Shown in pieces: positions 1,243 through 12,855 of a DNA stretch of 64,000 nt. Position 1 is the first letter of the stretch, and the number at the start of each line of letters is the position of its first letter. Origin of the DNA: Halostella limicola (GTDB taxonomy: Archaea > Halobacteriota > Halobacteria > Halobacteriales > Natronoarchaeaceae); assembly GCF_003675875.1 (NCBI RefSeq), contig NZ_RCDI01000002.1, forward strand, positions 560,786-624,785. The letters run 5' to 3'. The notes beneath the pieces are model-generated. The model made no database searches. It was not told the DNA's origin and saw nothing but the letters and a program-made list of their open reading frames with translations. A program made the translations under genes and the position numbers.

Positions 1243-2367
1243 ATGTCAGCATCCGACACGGAATCGGCGGACGCGATCCGGCGGCTCTTCGACCGGCACC
1301 TCGAAGCAGGCCTGCACCACGGCGGACAGCTCGCGGTGTACAGCGACGGCGAACTCGTCGTCGACGCGGCCGGCGGCGAGACCGGTCCCGACGGCGGCGA
1401 GACGACGGCGGAGCAGCGCCACCTCCTGTTCTCCTGCACCAAGCCGTTCGCCGGCGTCTGCCTCCACCAGCTCATCGAGGACGGCGACCTCGACTACGAC
1501 GACCCGGTCGTCGAGCACTGGCCGGAGTTCGCCGACGACGGGACGGCGAAGGCCGGGATCACCGTCCGGCAGGTGCTCAGCCACCAGTCGGGGCTCAACG
1601 AGAGCGCGTTCGACGACCGGCCGGACCTGTGGGGGGACTTGGACGCCGCGGCCGCGGCAATGGAGGACGCCGAACCGCCGCTCGATCCCGGCACGCCGGC
1701 GTACCAGACGCTTACCTACGGCTGGCTGGTCGGCGAACTCGTCCGCCGGGTCTCCGGGACGCCCATCGACGAGTACGCCGAGGAGAATCTGTTCGGCCCG
1801 CTCGGGATGGACCGCACGTCCATCGGCGCGGACGACCCCGAGGAGATCGCGACGCTCGTCGGCTTCGACGAGTTCGACCGCTGTCGCGACCCCGGCGAGG
1901 GCCTCGAAGACATGACGGAGAAGGAGGCCGCGGCGGCGTTCAACGAACCGGGCGTGCAGCGGGCCGCCGTCCCCGCCGCGACCGGCGTCGGCACCGCCCG
2001 CGACATGGCGCGGTTCTACGCCTGCATGGCCAACGGCGGCGAACTCGACGGGACGCGGGTGTTGGGGCCGGAGACCGTCGACGCGATGACGACGCTTCAG
2101 GCCGAGACCGAGGACGACGGCACGCTGTCGCGGCCGGCCCGCTACGGCCTCGGCGTCTGGATCGGCGGCGGCGTCACCGACTCCTTCGGCACGGTGAGTT
2201 CCGCGTCGACGTTCGGCCACCTCGGCCTCGGCAGCATCGCGGGCTGGGGCGACCTCGACTCGGATCTGGGATTCGCCTACGTCACCAACGGCGTCCGCGA
2301 GGAGTCGTTCGAGCACTGGGCGCGCGTGAACACGATGACCGACGCCGTGAAGCAGCTATTCGGCTGA
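1243..2367 (+). CDS. serine hydrolase, beta-lactamase/penicillin-binding-protein fold (class C / EstB-like)
   Basis: This 374-residue cytoplasmic-looking protein has the active-site S-x-x-K at S64-C-T-K67, a tyrosine motif at Y159-G-W (the usual Y-x-N has lost its Asn), and an H-L-G at about residue 326 in place of K-T-G, the pattern of EstB-type esterases rather than true beta-lactamases. No signal peptide is visible, which argues against a peptidoglycan role (haloarchaea have none) and for an esterase or amidase acting inside the cell. The substrate is unknown. It stands alone on the plus strand and its 3' end overlaps the 3' end of the convergent DNA polymerase gene by 12 bp. Confidence 0.85.
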   Translation: MSASDTESADAIRRLFDRHLEAGLHHGGQLAVYSDGELVVDAAGGETGPDGGETTAEQRHLLFSCTKPFAGVCLHQLIEDGDLDYDDPVVEHWPEFADDGTAKAGITVRQVLSHQSGLNESAFDDRPDLWGDLDAAAAAMEDAEPPLDPGTPAYQTLTYGWLVGELVRRVSGTPIDEYAEENLFGPLGMDRTSIGADDPEEIATLVGFDEFDRCRDPGEGLEDMTEKEAAAAFNEPGVQRAAVPAATGVGTARDMARFYACMANGGELDGTRVLGPETVDAMTTLQAETEDDGTLSRPARYGLGVWIGGGVTDSFGTVSSASTFGHLGLGSIAGWGDLDSDLGFAYVTNGVREESFEHWARVNTMTDAVKQLFG

Positions 2368-4563
2368 TCGATCGCCGTAGGCCGTCACGGCGGCGTCCTC
2401 CCGGTCCGCGAGGTACGCGGCGATCCGCTCGCGGTCCCACCCCAGCGGCGAGAGGACGCTCTCGGCGGCGCGGAGGGTCCGGTCGCGGTAGTAGTCGGCG
2501 TCGTAGCCGTCCGGCTCCTCCGCAGCGAGCGCGACCCGTGCCCTGGTGTCTCTCTCGTCGTCCACGACGACGTAGTCGACGGACTGGCCCGGCTCGACGT
2601 CGATGCCGGCGTCGTCCGCGCGGTCGAGCGCCGCCGTCGACCGGGTGTAGTGCGCGTACTCCCCCGGTTCCTTCGAGACGCGGTTCGTGACGGCGAGGCG
2701 CGCGGGGTCGACGCGGCCCGCGTCGAGGCGCTGGAGGAACTGCGCGAGGACGCCGCAGACGGGTTCCGGCTCGCGGTATTCGTCCAGCGCCGCGATCAGG
2801 TCGCGCTGCACGTCGGCGACCCACTCGGGCGTCGAGCGCTGGCGGCACTCGATCCCGCGGTACTTGAAGGCGTCTCCCGCTCCGTCCGCTGCTTCCGTCG
2901 CCCCGTCGCCCCTGCTCGCCCGCTTCCCGAAGTACTTCGTGAGCGCGCCGGCGTTCGAGTCCCGCCGCGGGACGAACGCCACCCAGTCGTGCGCCGCCTC
3001 GTACTCCAGTCGGATACCGGCGTCCTCGCTTATCTCCCGCGCGAGATCGTCGAGCGGCCGCTGATCGACGCCCTCCCGCGGCGTCACCCAGAGGCTGTCG
3101 ACGATGCCGTGGACGACCTCCCAGCCGCCCGCTTCGAGGGTCTCTTTCGCGTCGAGCAGGATCTCGCGGGCGAAGGCGTTGATCGCCTCGTGGCACTCGA
3201 TCCGGCCGAACTTCGCGTTGCTGAACCCCTGATAGCCGAAGCAGGCGACGAGGATCCACTTCAGCGCCGACGACCGGCCGGAGAGCGCCGCGCGGCGCTC
3301 GGGGTCGTCCGTCTCGCGGAGCGTCCGCTTGATGCCGTCGCGCGCCACCACCAGTTCCTCCAGCACGTCCGGGAGGTACCCCCGCTCGTCGCAGATGCTG
3401 TACCCCAGTTCCGGCACGTCCGCGCGGTCGAGATGGCAGTCGCACCGCACCGTCTCGGGGCTGACGTTGCGCGTGACGATAATGTTGGGATACAGCGACG
3501 AGAAGTCGAGTTCGCGGACGTCCTCGTGGAGGCCGGCCCGCGGCGAGAGCGTGTAGCCGCCGCGGTCCGCCGCCCCCAGCTGGCGCATCGACTTGAAGAA
3601 CTCCGCGCGCCACGACCGCCACGGGACGAGCACGCCGCGGGACTTGGCCTCGCGGATCTGGATCGCCGTGAGCACGTTGCCGATGGAGGCCCACGCCAGT
3701 TCCTGCAGCGGCTTCCCCGACCGACCGACGAGGTCGAGACAGCCCGACAGGTTCGTCTCGCGGTAGAAGAAGGTGTTCTCGCGGTCGATTATCGCCCTGC
3801 CGGGGACGCCGTACCGCGCTGGCGAGTGCCCCACCTGCCCGTAGCTCTCGTAGGTCGACGCGCCGGCCCGTTTCCGGTAGCCCGGTCGGCGACCCAACTG
3901 GAAGTCGATCCCCGCCTCGCGCGCCGTCTCGAACAGGACCGGAACGATCCGGGCGGTGCTCACGACGAGCACGTCCGGGTCCGCCGCGGCGACGCGCTCG
4001 CCGACCGCCGCCGCGACGGTCGCCGGGTCGCCGGTGATCGTCTCCGCCTCGGTCACCGCACTGGTCGCCGCGCTGCTCCCGACGCCGCCGGCGTCACCCG
4101 GTCCGACCGTACACTCCGTGATCCGGGGTTCGTCGCCGGCGAGTTCCGCTGGCGGCACCTCGATCGACAGCGTCCGGAGCGGGCTCTCCGGCGTCGGGTC
4201 CGTCCCCGTCTCCAGGCAGTAACGAAACCCCGGCGAGAGGTCCACGTCGAACAGCCGGTACGTCCCGGCGCGCTCCCAGCGCCGGAACTGGCGGGCCAGC
4301 GGGCGGACCGCGTCGACGTCGGTCGCGTCGATCCTGAGCACGTCGGTCGGCTCCTCGCGGAACCCCGGCCGCCACTCCTCGCGGGCCGTCGAGACGACGT
4401 CGGGGTGTGCTTCCACGCGGTCACGGTTCGCGGCGACCGACGCCCAGTCGTCGGCTTCCAGATAGAGCGTCGGCGCGTACTCGTCGTCGCGCTCTACCTC
4501 GACGCCGTCGGCCGTCCGCGACCAGACGTCGACGCCGTCGTCCCGGAAGTCGAGCGCGAACAT
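2356..4563 (-). CDS. polB2: B-family DNA polymerase, diverged PolB2-type paralog
   Basis: This 735-residue protein is homologous to archaeal B-family polymerases. Motif A reads DFSSLYPNII (Asp at about 353) and motif B KWILVACFGYQG (K435, Y444). Motif C, normally YGDTDS, reads HGIVDS at 485-490, so the first of its two Asp residues is Ile. The exonuclease domain is also eroded: the Exo I D-x-E reads S-I-E (133-135), and no Exo II or Exo III acidic motif is evident. A Cys cluster (C374, C376, C391) lies between motifs A and B. It is shorter than the replicative PolB. Diverged PolB2 paralogs are known in archaea and suspected of damage tolerance; here the 3'-5' exonuclease is probably dead and polymerase activity is doubtful or altered. 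ATG 4563 is chosen because it overlaps the upstream stop as ATGA, implying translational coupling. Confidence 0.88.
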   Translation of the reverse strand: MFALDFRDDGVDVWSRTADGVEVERDDEYAPTLYLEADDWASVAANRDRVEAHPDVVSTAREEWRPGFREEPTDVLRIDATDVDAVRPLARQFRRWERAGTYRLFDVDLSPGFRYCLETGTDPTPESPLRTLSIEVPPAELAGDEPRITECTVGPGDAGGVGSSAATSAVTEAETITGDPATVAAAVGERVAAADPDVLVVSTARIVPVLFETAREAGIDFQLGRRPGYRKRAGASTYESYGQVGHSPARYGVPGRAIIDRENTFFYRETNLSGCLDLVGRSGKPLQELAWASIGNVLTAIQIREAKSRGVLVPWRSWRAEFFKSMRQLGAADRGGYTLSPRAGLHEDVRELDFSSLYPNIIVTRNVSPETVRCDCHLDRADVPELGYSICDERGYLPDVLEELVVARDGIKRTLRETDDPERRAALSGRSSALKWILVACFGYQGFSNAKFGRIECHEAINAFAREILLDAKETLEAGGWEVVHGIVDSLWVTPREGVDQRPLDDLAREISEDAGIRLEYEAAHDWVAFVPRRDSNAGALTKYFGKRASRGDGATEAADGAGDAFKYRGIECRQRSTPEWVADVQRDLIAALDEYREPEPVCGVLAQFLQRLDAGRVDPARLAVTNRVSKEPGEYAHYTRSTAALDRADDAGIDVEPGQSVDYVVVDDERDTRARVALAAEEPDGYDADYYRDRTLRAAESVLSPLGWDRERIAAYLADREDAAVTAYGDRSAE

Positions 4564-4868
4564 CAGTCGCCGTCGGCGTCGTTGCACTCCGCCTCGTCGC
4601 CCCCGCCCTCCCGGTCGTCCTCCACCGCGTCGAGGCGCGCGCCGAGTTCATCGATCCGTCGCTGGTGTTCGAGCGCCATCGAGAACAGCGCGGGGACGAT
4701 GGGGTCCGGGTGGTTCAGCAGGCCGCTCGCGTCGGCGTGACGGTGGGCGTGCTCCCACAGGTCGTCGAAGCGGCGGCGCTCCTCCCGGCGGAGGCCGCGG
4801 CGGAACGTCTCCCAGCGCTCGGCCGTGCGACGGAGCAGGTCCCGGTACGTGGGGTTCGTGCGGCCCAT
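4563..4868 (-). CDS. small helical protein linking RecA-like and PolB2 genes
   Basis: This 101-residue protein of unknown function is Arg/Glu-rich and predicted largely alpha-helical. The N-terminal half (residues 1-40) is basic, with 'RDLLRRTAERWETFRRG'. The middle carries a conserved-looking 'LLNHPDPIVPALFSMALEHQRRIDELGARLD' region (about 50-80) that could form a coiled coil, and the tail is acidic. It starts by sharing one base with the stop of the RecA-like gene (TGATG) and ends in an ATGA overlap with the polymerase start, so the three are almost certainly one co-translated unit. By position it is a candidate adaptor between the RecA-like protein and the polymerase; that role is inference. 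Confidence 0.8.
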   Translation of the reverse strand: MGRTNPTYRDLLRRTAERWETFRRGLRREERRRFDDLWEHAHRHADASGLLNHPDPIVPALFSMALEHQRRIDELGARLDAVEDDREGGGDEAECNDADGD

Positions 4869-5617
4869 CACCGCCCCCCCGCGTCCGCGGGCGACGCCGT
4901 CGCCCCGCGGCGCAGCTCGTCGGTCTCCGCCGTCGCGCCGTGGACCGGGGTCCGCGCCCGCAGGATCCGCGTCCAGTACGCGAGCGTCGTCTGCGCGGTG
5001 CCGTCCGGGCCGCCGGGATAGACGAGCGTCTCGAACTCGTCGGAGCGAAAGCGCGGGCCGAACTCGGTCCGCTCGCAGGCGAGCGTCGCGTCGGCCGCGC
5101 TCGACAGGGGCGCGGCGAACTCGTCGTCCCGACGCCGCGTGACCAGCACTGGCAGGTCGCGCTCGCGGGCGACGCCGGCGACCGTCGCGAGGCTCCGCAG
5201 GAACAGCCCGCGGGCGTCCTCGGTCGGTAGCTCGTCGCCGCGGTACTGGCCGTCCATCGCCGGCAGGACGAGCAGCGACGTCTCCGGCGCGATCCGATCG
5301 GGCAGGCGCTCGACGAGCGTCGCGTGCTGGGTGGGCGTGAACCCCCGAGCGACCCGCACGCGGTCGAGGACGCGCCGCCCCGGCGCGAGGCGGGCGAGCA
5401 ACTGGGACTGCGCGTGGCCGTGGCTGTCGACCCACAGCGCGTCGCCGCCCTCCAGTAGGAGGTGGTCGAGCGCGAGCGCCTGCAGCGGGCCGGTCGCCCG
5501 CTCGTCGGTTTCGAGCAGCGTGATCCCCGGGTCGAGCGTCGGTAGCTCCGGCACGTCGAGTCGGTCGTCGCGGGTCGCCGTCAGGTCGCGACCGTCGGGC
5601 GGTGGCGTTCGAACCAT
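4868..5617 (-). CDS. RadA/RecA-superfamily protein with inactivated Walker motifs
   Basis: This 249-residue protein aligns by eye with the RadA ATPase core. 'LDRVRVARGFTPTQH' (about 84-98) matches the RadA 'LDNIxVARAYNSDHQ' strand, and 'LLVLPAMDGQYRGDEL' (115-130) matches the Walker B/L1 'LIIVDSLTSHFRAEY' segment. The Walker A position reads DSHGHAQSQ (64-72) where RadA has GxxGxGKSQ, so the P-loop lysine is gone, and the Walker B Asp is Pro. ATP hydrolysis is therefore unlikely. It lacks the RadA N-terminal HhH domain. It overlaps the next gene by one base and heads a three-gene unit with PolB2. The ATG at 5617 has a TATA-like 'TTATG' at 5643-5647 on the minus strand, fitting a leaderless start. 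It might be called RadB-like, but RadB keeps its P-loop. Confidence 0.8.
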   Translation of the reverse strand: MVRTPPPDGRDLTATRDDRLDVPELPTLDPGITLLETDERATGPLQALALDHLLLEGGDALWVDSHGHAQSQLLARLAPGRRVLDRVRVARGFTPTQHATLVERLPDRIAPETSLLVLPAMDGQYRGDELPTEDARGLFLRSLATVAGVARERDLPVLVTRRRDDEFAAPLSSAADATLACERTEFGPRFRSDEFETLVYPGGPDGTAQTTLAYWTRILRARTPVHGATAETDELRRGATASPADAGGR

Positions 5618-5659
5618 ACTTTCGAGTTTCCCGCCGGCCCGCATAAGCCGCGGCGTGGC

Positions 5660-5678
5660 GTTTCCGGAGTTTCCGGAG
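5660..5678. repeat. tandem 'CTCCGGAAA' motif, promoter-proximal copy
   Basis: On the minus strand this reads CTCCGGAAACTCCGGAAAC, two 9-10 bp units in tandem. It sits just upstream of the TATA-like box of the RecA-like gene, about 43-61 bases before the start codon, where haloarchaeal activators usually bind. An exact second copy lies at 5736-5754. The core TCCGGA is self-complementary. Confidence 0.7.
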
Positions 5679-5735
5679 TCCGGCGACGAGCTCAAAAACC
5701 GCGGGCAAGCGGCGGGGGTATCCACTCCGGGGTCC

Positions 5736-5754
5736 GTTTCCGGAGTTTCCGGAG
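5736..5754. repeat. tandem 'CTCCGGAAA' motif, distal copy
   Basis: This is an exact second copy of the 19-bp tandem motif at 5660-5678, with start-to-start spacing of 76 bp. It lies 13 bp beyond the stop codon of the Orc1/Cdc6 gene. Two identical 19-bp copies in a 150-bp intergenic gap are unlikely by chance and suggest a cooperative protein-binding site controlling the RecA-like/PolB2 unit. The half-sequence GGAAAC resembles part of haloarchaeal origin-recognition-box cores, so Orc1/Cdc6 binding is one possibility. Confidence 0.7.
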
Positions 5755-5767
5755 CGCGCTTCCGGCA

Positions 5768-6772: not shown

Positions 6773-6848
6773 CGTCGGACAGTGCTTTCCGGACCGACAT
6801 AAAGTCGCCGGGCGTCCGCTCGCGGCGTGCGGCGGACCGCCACCCGCC

Positions 6849-12480: not shown

Positions 12481-12855
12481 TCAGCCCTCGATCTCGATGG
12501 TCTTGCCGCGGGTGGTCGCGCTCTCGGTGGTCGGGAGGGTCACTTCGAGGACGCCGTTCCGGTAGGCCGCGGCGATCTCGTCCTCGTCGATCTCTTTGGG
12601 CATCCGGAAGCTCCGGTGGTAGGTCTTCTTGCGGCCGCGGCTCGCGTCCTCGTGTTCGGCCGCGACGTTCAGGCGGCCCTCGTGCCAGCTGACGTCGATC
12701 TCGTCGCGCTCGAAGCCGGGCATCTCAACGCTGAGGACGAACTCGCCGTCGTCCTCGTACAGTTCCACGTCGTTGTCGCCTGTACTACCGAACAGCTGGG
12801 TGGGCAGGTTCAGGCCTCGCGTCCAGGAGCTGACGGGACTGGTCGGCAGGGCCAT
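12481..12855 (-). CDS. Hsp20/alpha-crystallin small heat-shock protein
   Basis: This 124-residue protein carries the alpha-crystallin domain: 'VELYEDDGEFVLSVEMPGFERDEIDVSW', the central 'RSFRMPKEID' and 'AAYRNGVLEVTLP', which contains the A-x-x-x-N-G-V-L signature of the family. The short N-terminal arm (about 25 residues) and C-terminal tail ending 'TIEIEG' supply the usual oligomerisation I-x-I. It acts as an ATP-independent holdase in the cytoplasm. An AT-rich promoter with 'TTTATTTA' lies at about 12890-12897, leaving a leader of some 10-15 bases. Convergent with the DsbA-like gene. Confidence 0.93.
   Translation of the reverse strand: MALPTSPVSSWTRGLNLPTQLFGSTGDNDVELYEDDGEFVLSVEMPGFERDEIDVSWHEGRLNVAAEHEDASRGRKKTYHRSFRMPKEIDEDEIAAAYRNGVLEVTLPTTESATTRGKTIEIEG

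Follow-up and report, generated by a model that had tools for sequence, protein, structure and literature searches.

In Saccharolobus islandicus, the Orc1/Cdc6-family protein Orc1-2 is not a replication initiator but binds the DDRE (ANTTTC) in its own promoter and in other damage-response promoters (PMC9738581; Sun et al. 2018). The targets induced by DNA damage in Saccharolobus include the polB2 (Dpo2) operon. Halobacterium is devoid of a LexA-type SOS system (PMC1224876), and no paper naming a regulator of the haloarchaeal damage response was found in the literature search. One published haloarchaeal UV motif is the UV-B motif TTTCACTTTCA of Halobacterium NRC-1 (PMC2556686), a short, internally repeated element residing upstream of TATA in the damage-induced genes radA1, top6B, vng17 and vng280. 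In addition, two papers (PMC11791011; PMC4104785) already describe the iRadA-PPB2-PolB2 mutasome operon and the enrichment of orc1/cdc6 genes beside archaeal polB2. The former also describes the N-terminal MGRT motif of PPB2, while the latter assigns polB2-linked euryarchaeal orc genes to the arORC2 subfamily.

The window considered here, a stretch of 64,000 nucleotides from Halostella limicola, features such an operon. On its minus strand an orc1/cdc6-like gene is followed by a 150-bp gap, which holds both copies of a tandem box, and then by the genes for iRadA, PPB2 and PolB2 (Table 1). According to the operon criteria of PMC11791011, from which the naming of iRadA is also adopted, the latter three belong to the mutasome operon: they are adjacent, co-directional and in the right order, and PPB2 displays the MGRT motif at its N-terminus. 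In the proximal box, the second GGAA is located at -48 from the iRadA ATG, and the site ends 12 bp before CTTATG, which bears out the TATA-like box reported near the motif by the first-pass annotation. With the centre of CTTATG some 27 bp ahead of the iRadA start codon (ATG at 5617), the transcript of the iRadA operon is likely leaderless.

Table 1. Features of the orc-iRadA-PPB2-PolB2 locus of Halostella limicola (positions within the window).
Feature	Position	Strand	Remarks
PolB2 (P0004), family-B DNA polymerase	2356..4563	-	PF00136 1.6e-23; NF004418 1017.6 bits, cut-off 692
PPB2 (P0003), small, arCOG07300-like	4563..4868	-	N-terminal MGRT motif
iRadA (P0002), inactivated RadA/RadB-like, first gene of the operon	4868..5617	-	weak RadB match, TIGR02237 5e-4; conserved order
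TATA-like CTTATG, iRadA-PPB2-PolB2 promoter	5642..5647	-	TTAT/TTAA at the same box distance in relatives
Proximal tandem box CTCCGGAAACTCCGGAAAC	5660..5678	-	same position in relatives
Distal tandem box, identical 19-mer	5736..5754	-	76 bp further upstream, 13 bp past the orc stop codon
Orc1/Cdc6-family gene (P0001), 334 aa	5768..6772	-	AAA+ plus winged helix; likely box reader
Single TCCGGAAAG	6785..6793	-	between TATA-like TTTATG and the orc ATG

Both boxes consist of the same 19-mer, in which a near-palindromic unit (TCCGGA) is directly repeated with a period of 9. The annotation had described a 19-bp tandem motif occurring exactly twice, 76 bp apart; both positions were recovered, this distance being measured from start to start, and the 4.1-Mb genome contains no further exact copy, its remaining matches comprising one site with one mismatch (contig C8, position 12676) and three sites with three mismatches. 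The reversed 19-mer, used as a control, yielded no match in a genome-wide search. Upon tolerating up to three mismatches, the two boxes are the only copies in the window, while 100 dinucleotide shuffles of the window gave a mean of 0.07 copies and none reached two. For the decamer of the box, the window contains exactly four occurrences, all within these boxes (0.2 expected), and the genome 14 including these four, which is not the similar random density across the genome that would have spoken against a dedicated regulator. Other GGAA pairs in the genome that are likewise positioned relative to TATA lie ahead of unrelated genes, for example those of secreted and membrane proteins, and seem to be due to chance.

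Among 80 retrieved PolB2 relatives, most of which share the gene order, the recurring element before iRadA is a tandem TTCNGGAA-N-TTCNGGAAAC placed just upstream of TTAT/TTAA. By a simple rule, at least one tandem box is present at 58 of 66 iRadA loci, compared to 6% of Markov shuffles, and at least two at 56% of these loci as opposed to 0.2% in shuffles; when the loci are grouped at 70% identity, 21 of 26 iRadA clusters retain the tandem box (6.3% in shuffles). The box is also kept at iRadA promoters to which orc is not linked. The spacing of the distal box, taken at the second half-site, mostly amounts to 73-79 bp in the relatives, with exceptions of 64-65, 84 and, in one genome, 124 bp, and is thus too variable to claim that the two boxes are strictly phased on the helix, an idea that was dropped. 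Halostella pelagica harbors a different box, TTCTGGAACTTCTGGAAACG, likewise twice, and hence the copies match within a promoter while the sequence drifts between species. Judged by this comparison, the box is a real phylogenetic footprint, i.e. a conserved and functionally placed regulatory element.

The same element recurs upstream of orc itself, where the tandem is found in 10 of 13 clusters (<80% identity), its second GGAA falling between -47 and -53 relative to the start codon and thereby at the same distance as before iRadA, against a background of 0.6% in shuffles of 200 bp. One more cluster of 14 members carries a single palindrome, TTTCCGGAAAC or close to it, in the same place. Where orc genes are unlinked, six of eight promoters possess the tandem and the remaining two a single TTTCCGGAAAC at this place. 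Box and Orc also co-occur in genomes with unlinked polB2 operons, 14 of 15 of which encode orc elsewhere, while no Orc ortholog was found in one box-bearing MAG (L009). Within the Halostella group, the tandem box is absent from the promoter of the orc gene, which has only TCCGGAAAG after TATA; in relatives outside this group the orc box is situated upstream of TATA. The best reading of these sequences is a putative autoregulation of orc in most lineages, though not in that of Halostella limicola. Separately, a recurrent TCCGGGAACTTCCGGAAA was observed about 140-155 bp upstream of orc orthologs and pointing away from them (L167, L170, L180, L192 and L199), which in several genomes of one family represents a divergent or distal orc box.

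A search of 293 haloarchaeal genomes with the query TTCNGGAANTTCNGGAAA, in which palindromic double counts were merged, returned 25 distinct exact sites, compared to one for the reversed control. In 16 of the 25 cases the next gene behind the site is an orc ortholog or belongs to iRadA/PPB2, with a distance to the start codon of typically 62-63 bp. The other nine comprise three promoter-like sites before small genes (L125, L127, L138), one site after orc (L128) and five devoid of a promoter-like setting. With one mismatch tolerated, 119 of the 293 genomes contain a match and control matches are few. The dedicated regulator proposed in the first-pass annotation is thereby strongly supported, as the boxes are conserved, occupy a fixed place before TATA and precede almost exclusively two gene units. 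Beyond these units, L128 and L190 (genus g38) exhibit a box 190-195 bp past the orc gene, where the iRadA promoter would be expected, and no iRadA was recognised behind it. In the set of genomes G136 and G097, a box lies at a promoter-like distance from a short ORF with a zinc-ribbon-like ORF behind it (L138/L229) and, in the same genus, from a small HicB-like ORF (L176/L230); both are possible extra members of the regulon.

The candidate reader of the boxes is encoded next to them. P0001 matches TIGR02928 nearly end to end (2.1e-51), yet below the curated cut-off, gives a Cdc6_lid match in the profile search, and contains the Walker A and B motifs GPTGTGKT and LVLDEVDQ. Its AlphaFold2 model (pLDDT 88) comprises an AAA+ domain and a C-terminal winged helix, and the best-matching folds are those of archaeal Orc1/Cdc6 proteins, first of all 2qby_A and 2v1u_A (bound to origin DNA). 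These results assign P0001 to the Orc1/Cdc6 proteins, the AAA+ and winged-helix domains included. Its family constitutes a clade of its own (100/100) that excludes the eight other Orc paralogs of the genome, to which P0001 is 24-30% identical, some paralog branches being long in the tree. By sequence, P0001 is placed in a non-initiator Orc clade, given its separation from the origin-linked Orcs and the lack of an ORB origin alongside. Moreover, the likeness of the boxes to origin-box cores, as pointed out by the annotation, is real: the initiator boxes of the same genome are of the type AGCATCGGAAACG[TC]GGGG, and the CGGAAAC core of these ORBs, which the box shares, supports an Orc-type reader. 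P0001 probably reads the boxes, a prediction drawn from linkage, motif-core similarity and analogy to the literature.

By analogy, Orc1-2/DDRE is the closest known system, of which the boxes look like a haloarchaeal version. Common to both are an Orc1-family protein outside initiation (here a predicted regulator), sites before the regulator gene (here in most lineages, though not in the Halostella group) and before damage genes, including the polB2 operon as the boxed target, and a GAAA/TTTC core. This likeness is one of protein class and targets. On the other hand, the box of haloarchaea is longer, a tandem palindrome TTCCGGAA-N-TTCCGGAAAC that is often duplicated before iRadA, and its regulon seems much smaller. 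AGTTTC, a DDRE-type hexamer, occurs once in each copy of the window; the conserved haloarchaeal unit, however, is TTCNGGAAAC, mostly followed by G, so that the ANTTTC hexamer is not the conserved part. The UV-B motif resembles the boxes in being short, internally repeated and upstream of TATA in damage-induced haloarchaeal genes, but differs in sequence and targets, and a direct reading of 5618-5767 revealed no TTTCACTTTCA upstream of TATA.

Taken together, the boxes are best regarded as operator or activator sites of the iRadA-PPB2-PolB2 promoter that would be bound by the non-initiator Orc P0001 as a transcription factor, with a probability of roughly 0.7. The two hypotheses of the annotation, an Orc1/Cdc6 site and a damage-response operator, need not compete: they fit best when combined into a predicted transcriptional site with a non-initiator Orc reader beside a damage-polymerase operon, as is known for Sulfolobus Orc1-2. 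The boxes with their conservation, geometry and targets are observed, as are the Orc fold and the co-occurrence of Orc with the box, whereas we infer that P0001 binds them, in what stoichiometry it does so, which way it regulates and that DNA damage is the signal. The winged helix of P0001 would read palindromic units of the TTCCGGAA type, and a dimer would be held by two such units with a spacing of 9 bp, which is about one helical turn. A second dimer, approximately seven turns upstream, may cooperate with the proximal one, and dimers directly upstream of BRE/TATA would control the recruitment of TBP/TFB. As an outcome, the damage-tolerance polymerase would be made upon DNA damage, while the box before orc itself in most haloarchaea would confer autoregulation. 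Several observations count against this explanation, namely the missing tandem in the orc promoter of the Halostella group, the box-bearing MAG without an Orc ortholog, the not strictly constant spacing of the distal box and the different sequence of the published haloarchaeal UV motif. Furthermore, radA1, nrdJ and other genes are reported in the papers on Halobacterium UV arrays (PMC2556686, PMC1224876), and neither orc nor polB was mentioned there according to a text search, which equally counts against a damage operator read by P0001.

Another transcription factor, encoded elsewhere, might instead read the boxes and control both orc and the polB2 operon, with Orc being a co-regulated target only. 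The persistence of the box at iRadA promoters with an unlinked orc would suit such a factor, as would the fact that the case for P0001 as reader is built on linkage, motif-core similarity and literature analogy. This alternative is nevertheless rather improbable, in view of the resemblance of the unit to the ORB core of the same genome, the Orc ortholog in 14 of the 15 genomes with unlinked polB2 and the precedent of Orc1-2, for which the own promoter is a known target.

Even less probable is a role of the boxes as origin recognition boxes, with the gap serving as an orc-adjacent replication origin. The intergenic position next to orc, the Orc/Cdc6 partner and the GGAAAC portion of the CGGAAAC core are indeed shared with haloarchaeal ORBs (PMC3528665). 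Those, however, are distinguished by a G-string and by an inverted arrangement around an AT-rich element. At the P0001 locus, neither an ORB with a G-string nor inverted ORBs flanking an AT-rich element were found; both boxes are co-oriented in a gap of 150 bp with 67% GC. Their distances to TATA and to the start codon are fixed in two different genes, and boxes persist where orc is not adjacent. An origin was hence rejected on the grounds of the absent G-string, orientation, GC content and promoter geometry. By comparison, the Orc paralog with the best TIGR02928 match (L087, contig C4 near 335739) is accompanied by five ORBs, AGCATCGGAAAC, with a G-string and on both strands, which likely constitute an active origin of this genome. 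Finally, a local duplication or promoter element without a dedicated regulator, its similarity being coincidental, is scarcely credible: copies within a genome do resemble each other more than those of other genomes (window versus L008), yet the conservation in diverged clusters far exceeds shuffles and the footprint already contradicts it, as do the near-exclusive targets in 293 genomes; with only these copies in the genome, the box is no general promoter element either.

The box also occurs outside these loci, on what may be mobile elements. On contig C8 (44.6 kb), the region 12600-12710 (L003, L210) encompasses the box with one mismatch, another tandem some 75 bp further upstream and, suitably spaced, a TATA-like ATTAAAG; it is flanked by a small winged-helix regulator (phrog_2440) on one side and an MCM operon on the other. 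As the next clear coding start is about 440 bp away, this site may be either a promoter or an origin; no Orc was among the matches listed for this contig, and a 196-aa protein encoded there has no relatives in IMG/VR. In two genomes of another genus, a tyrosine-integrase operon has the same box twice in its promoter (L227:7878-7895 in G136; L228:7027-7044 in G097); the operon is located within proviruses that carry a pleolipovirus-type spike gene and is divergent from a small winged-helix regulator. The tandem is absent from the matching control region of SNJ2, HRPV9, Halfgib1, HHPV4 and plasmid pHALXA03, and mobile-element use is therefore not general. Matches to TTCYGGAANTTCYGGAAAC in IMG/VR, 52 in number, were dismissed as chance, since none looked haloarchaeal: for the most part they had a low GC content, fell into open frames or lacked a suitable TATA. 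The use of the box by mobile elements is thus suggestive, not established. A more far-reaching and tentative idea, which we consider doubtful at present, is an SOS-like haloarchaeal switch in which a non-initiator Orc1 and the tandem TTCCGGAA box would control the PolB2 mutasome and orc, the box having been adopted by mobile elements for control regions of their own. If true, damage to the host could trigger excision or replication of the box-bearing elements, as is known for prophages with LexA boxes.

The conservation of the operon and its linkage to orc are known. The mutasome-operon papers (PMC11791011, PMC4104785) cover the operon behind the boxes and the orc linkage, but their available sections describe no control box, and literature searches turned up neither the sequence of the box nor an Orc-type damage regulator of haloarchaea; within the literature searched, the box hence appears to be new. 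With a specific box, a protein that probably reads it and two promoters as targets, in haloarchaea that are tractable, the question of the regulator becomes testable. If the reading of the boxes by P0001 is true, replication-initiator proteins acting as transcription factors would be linked across both major branches of the archaea.
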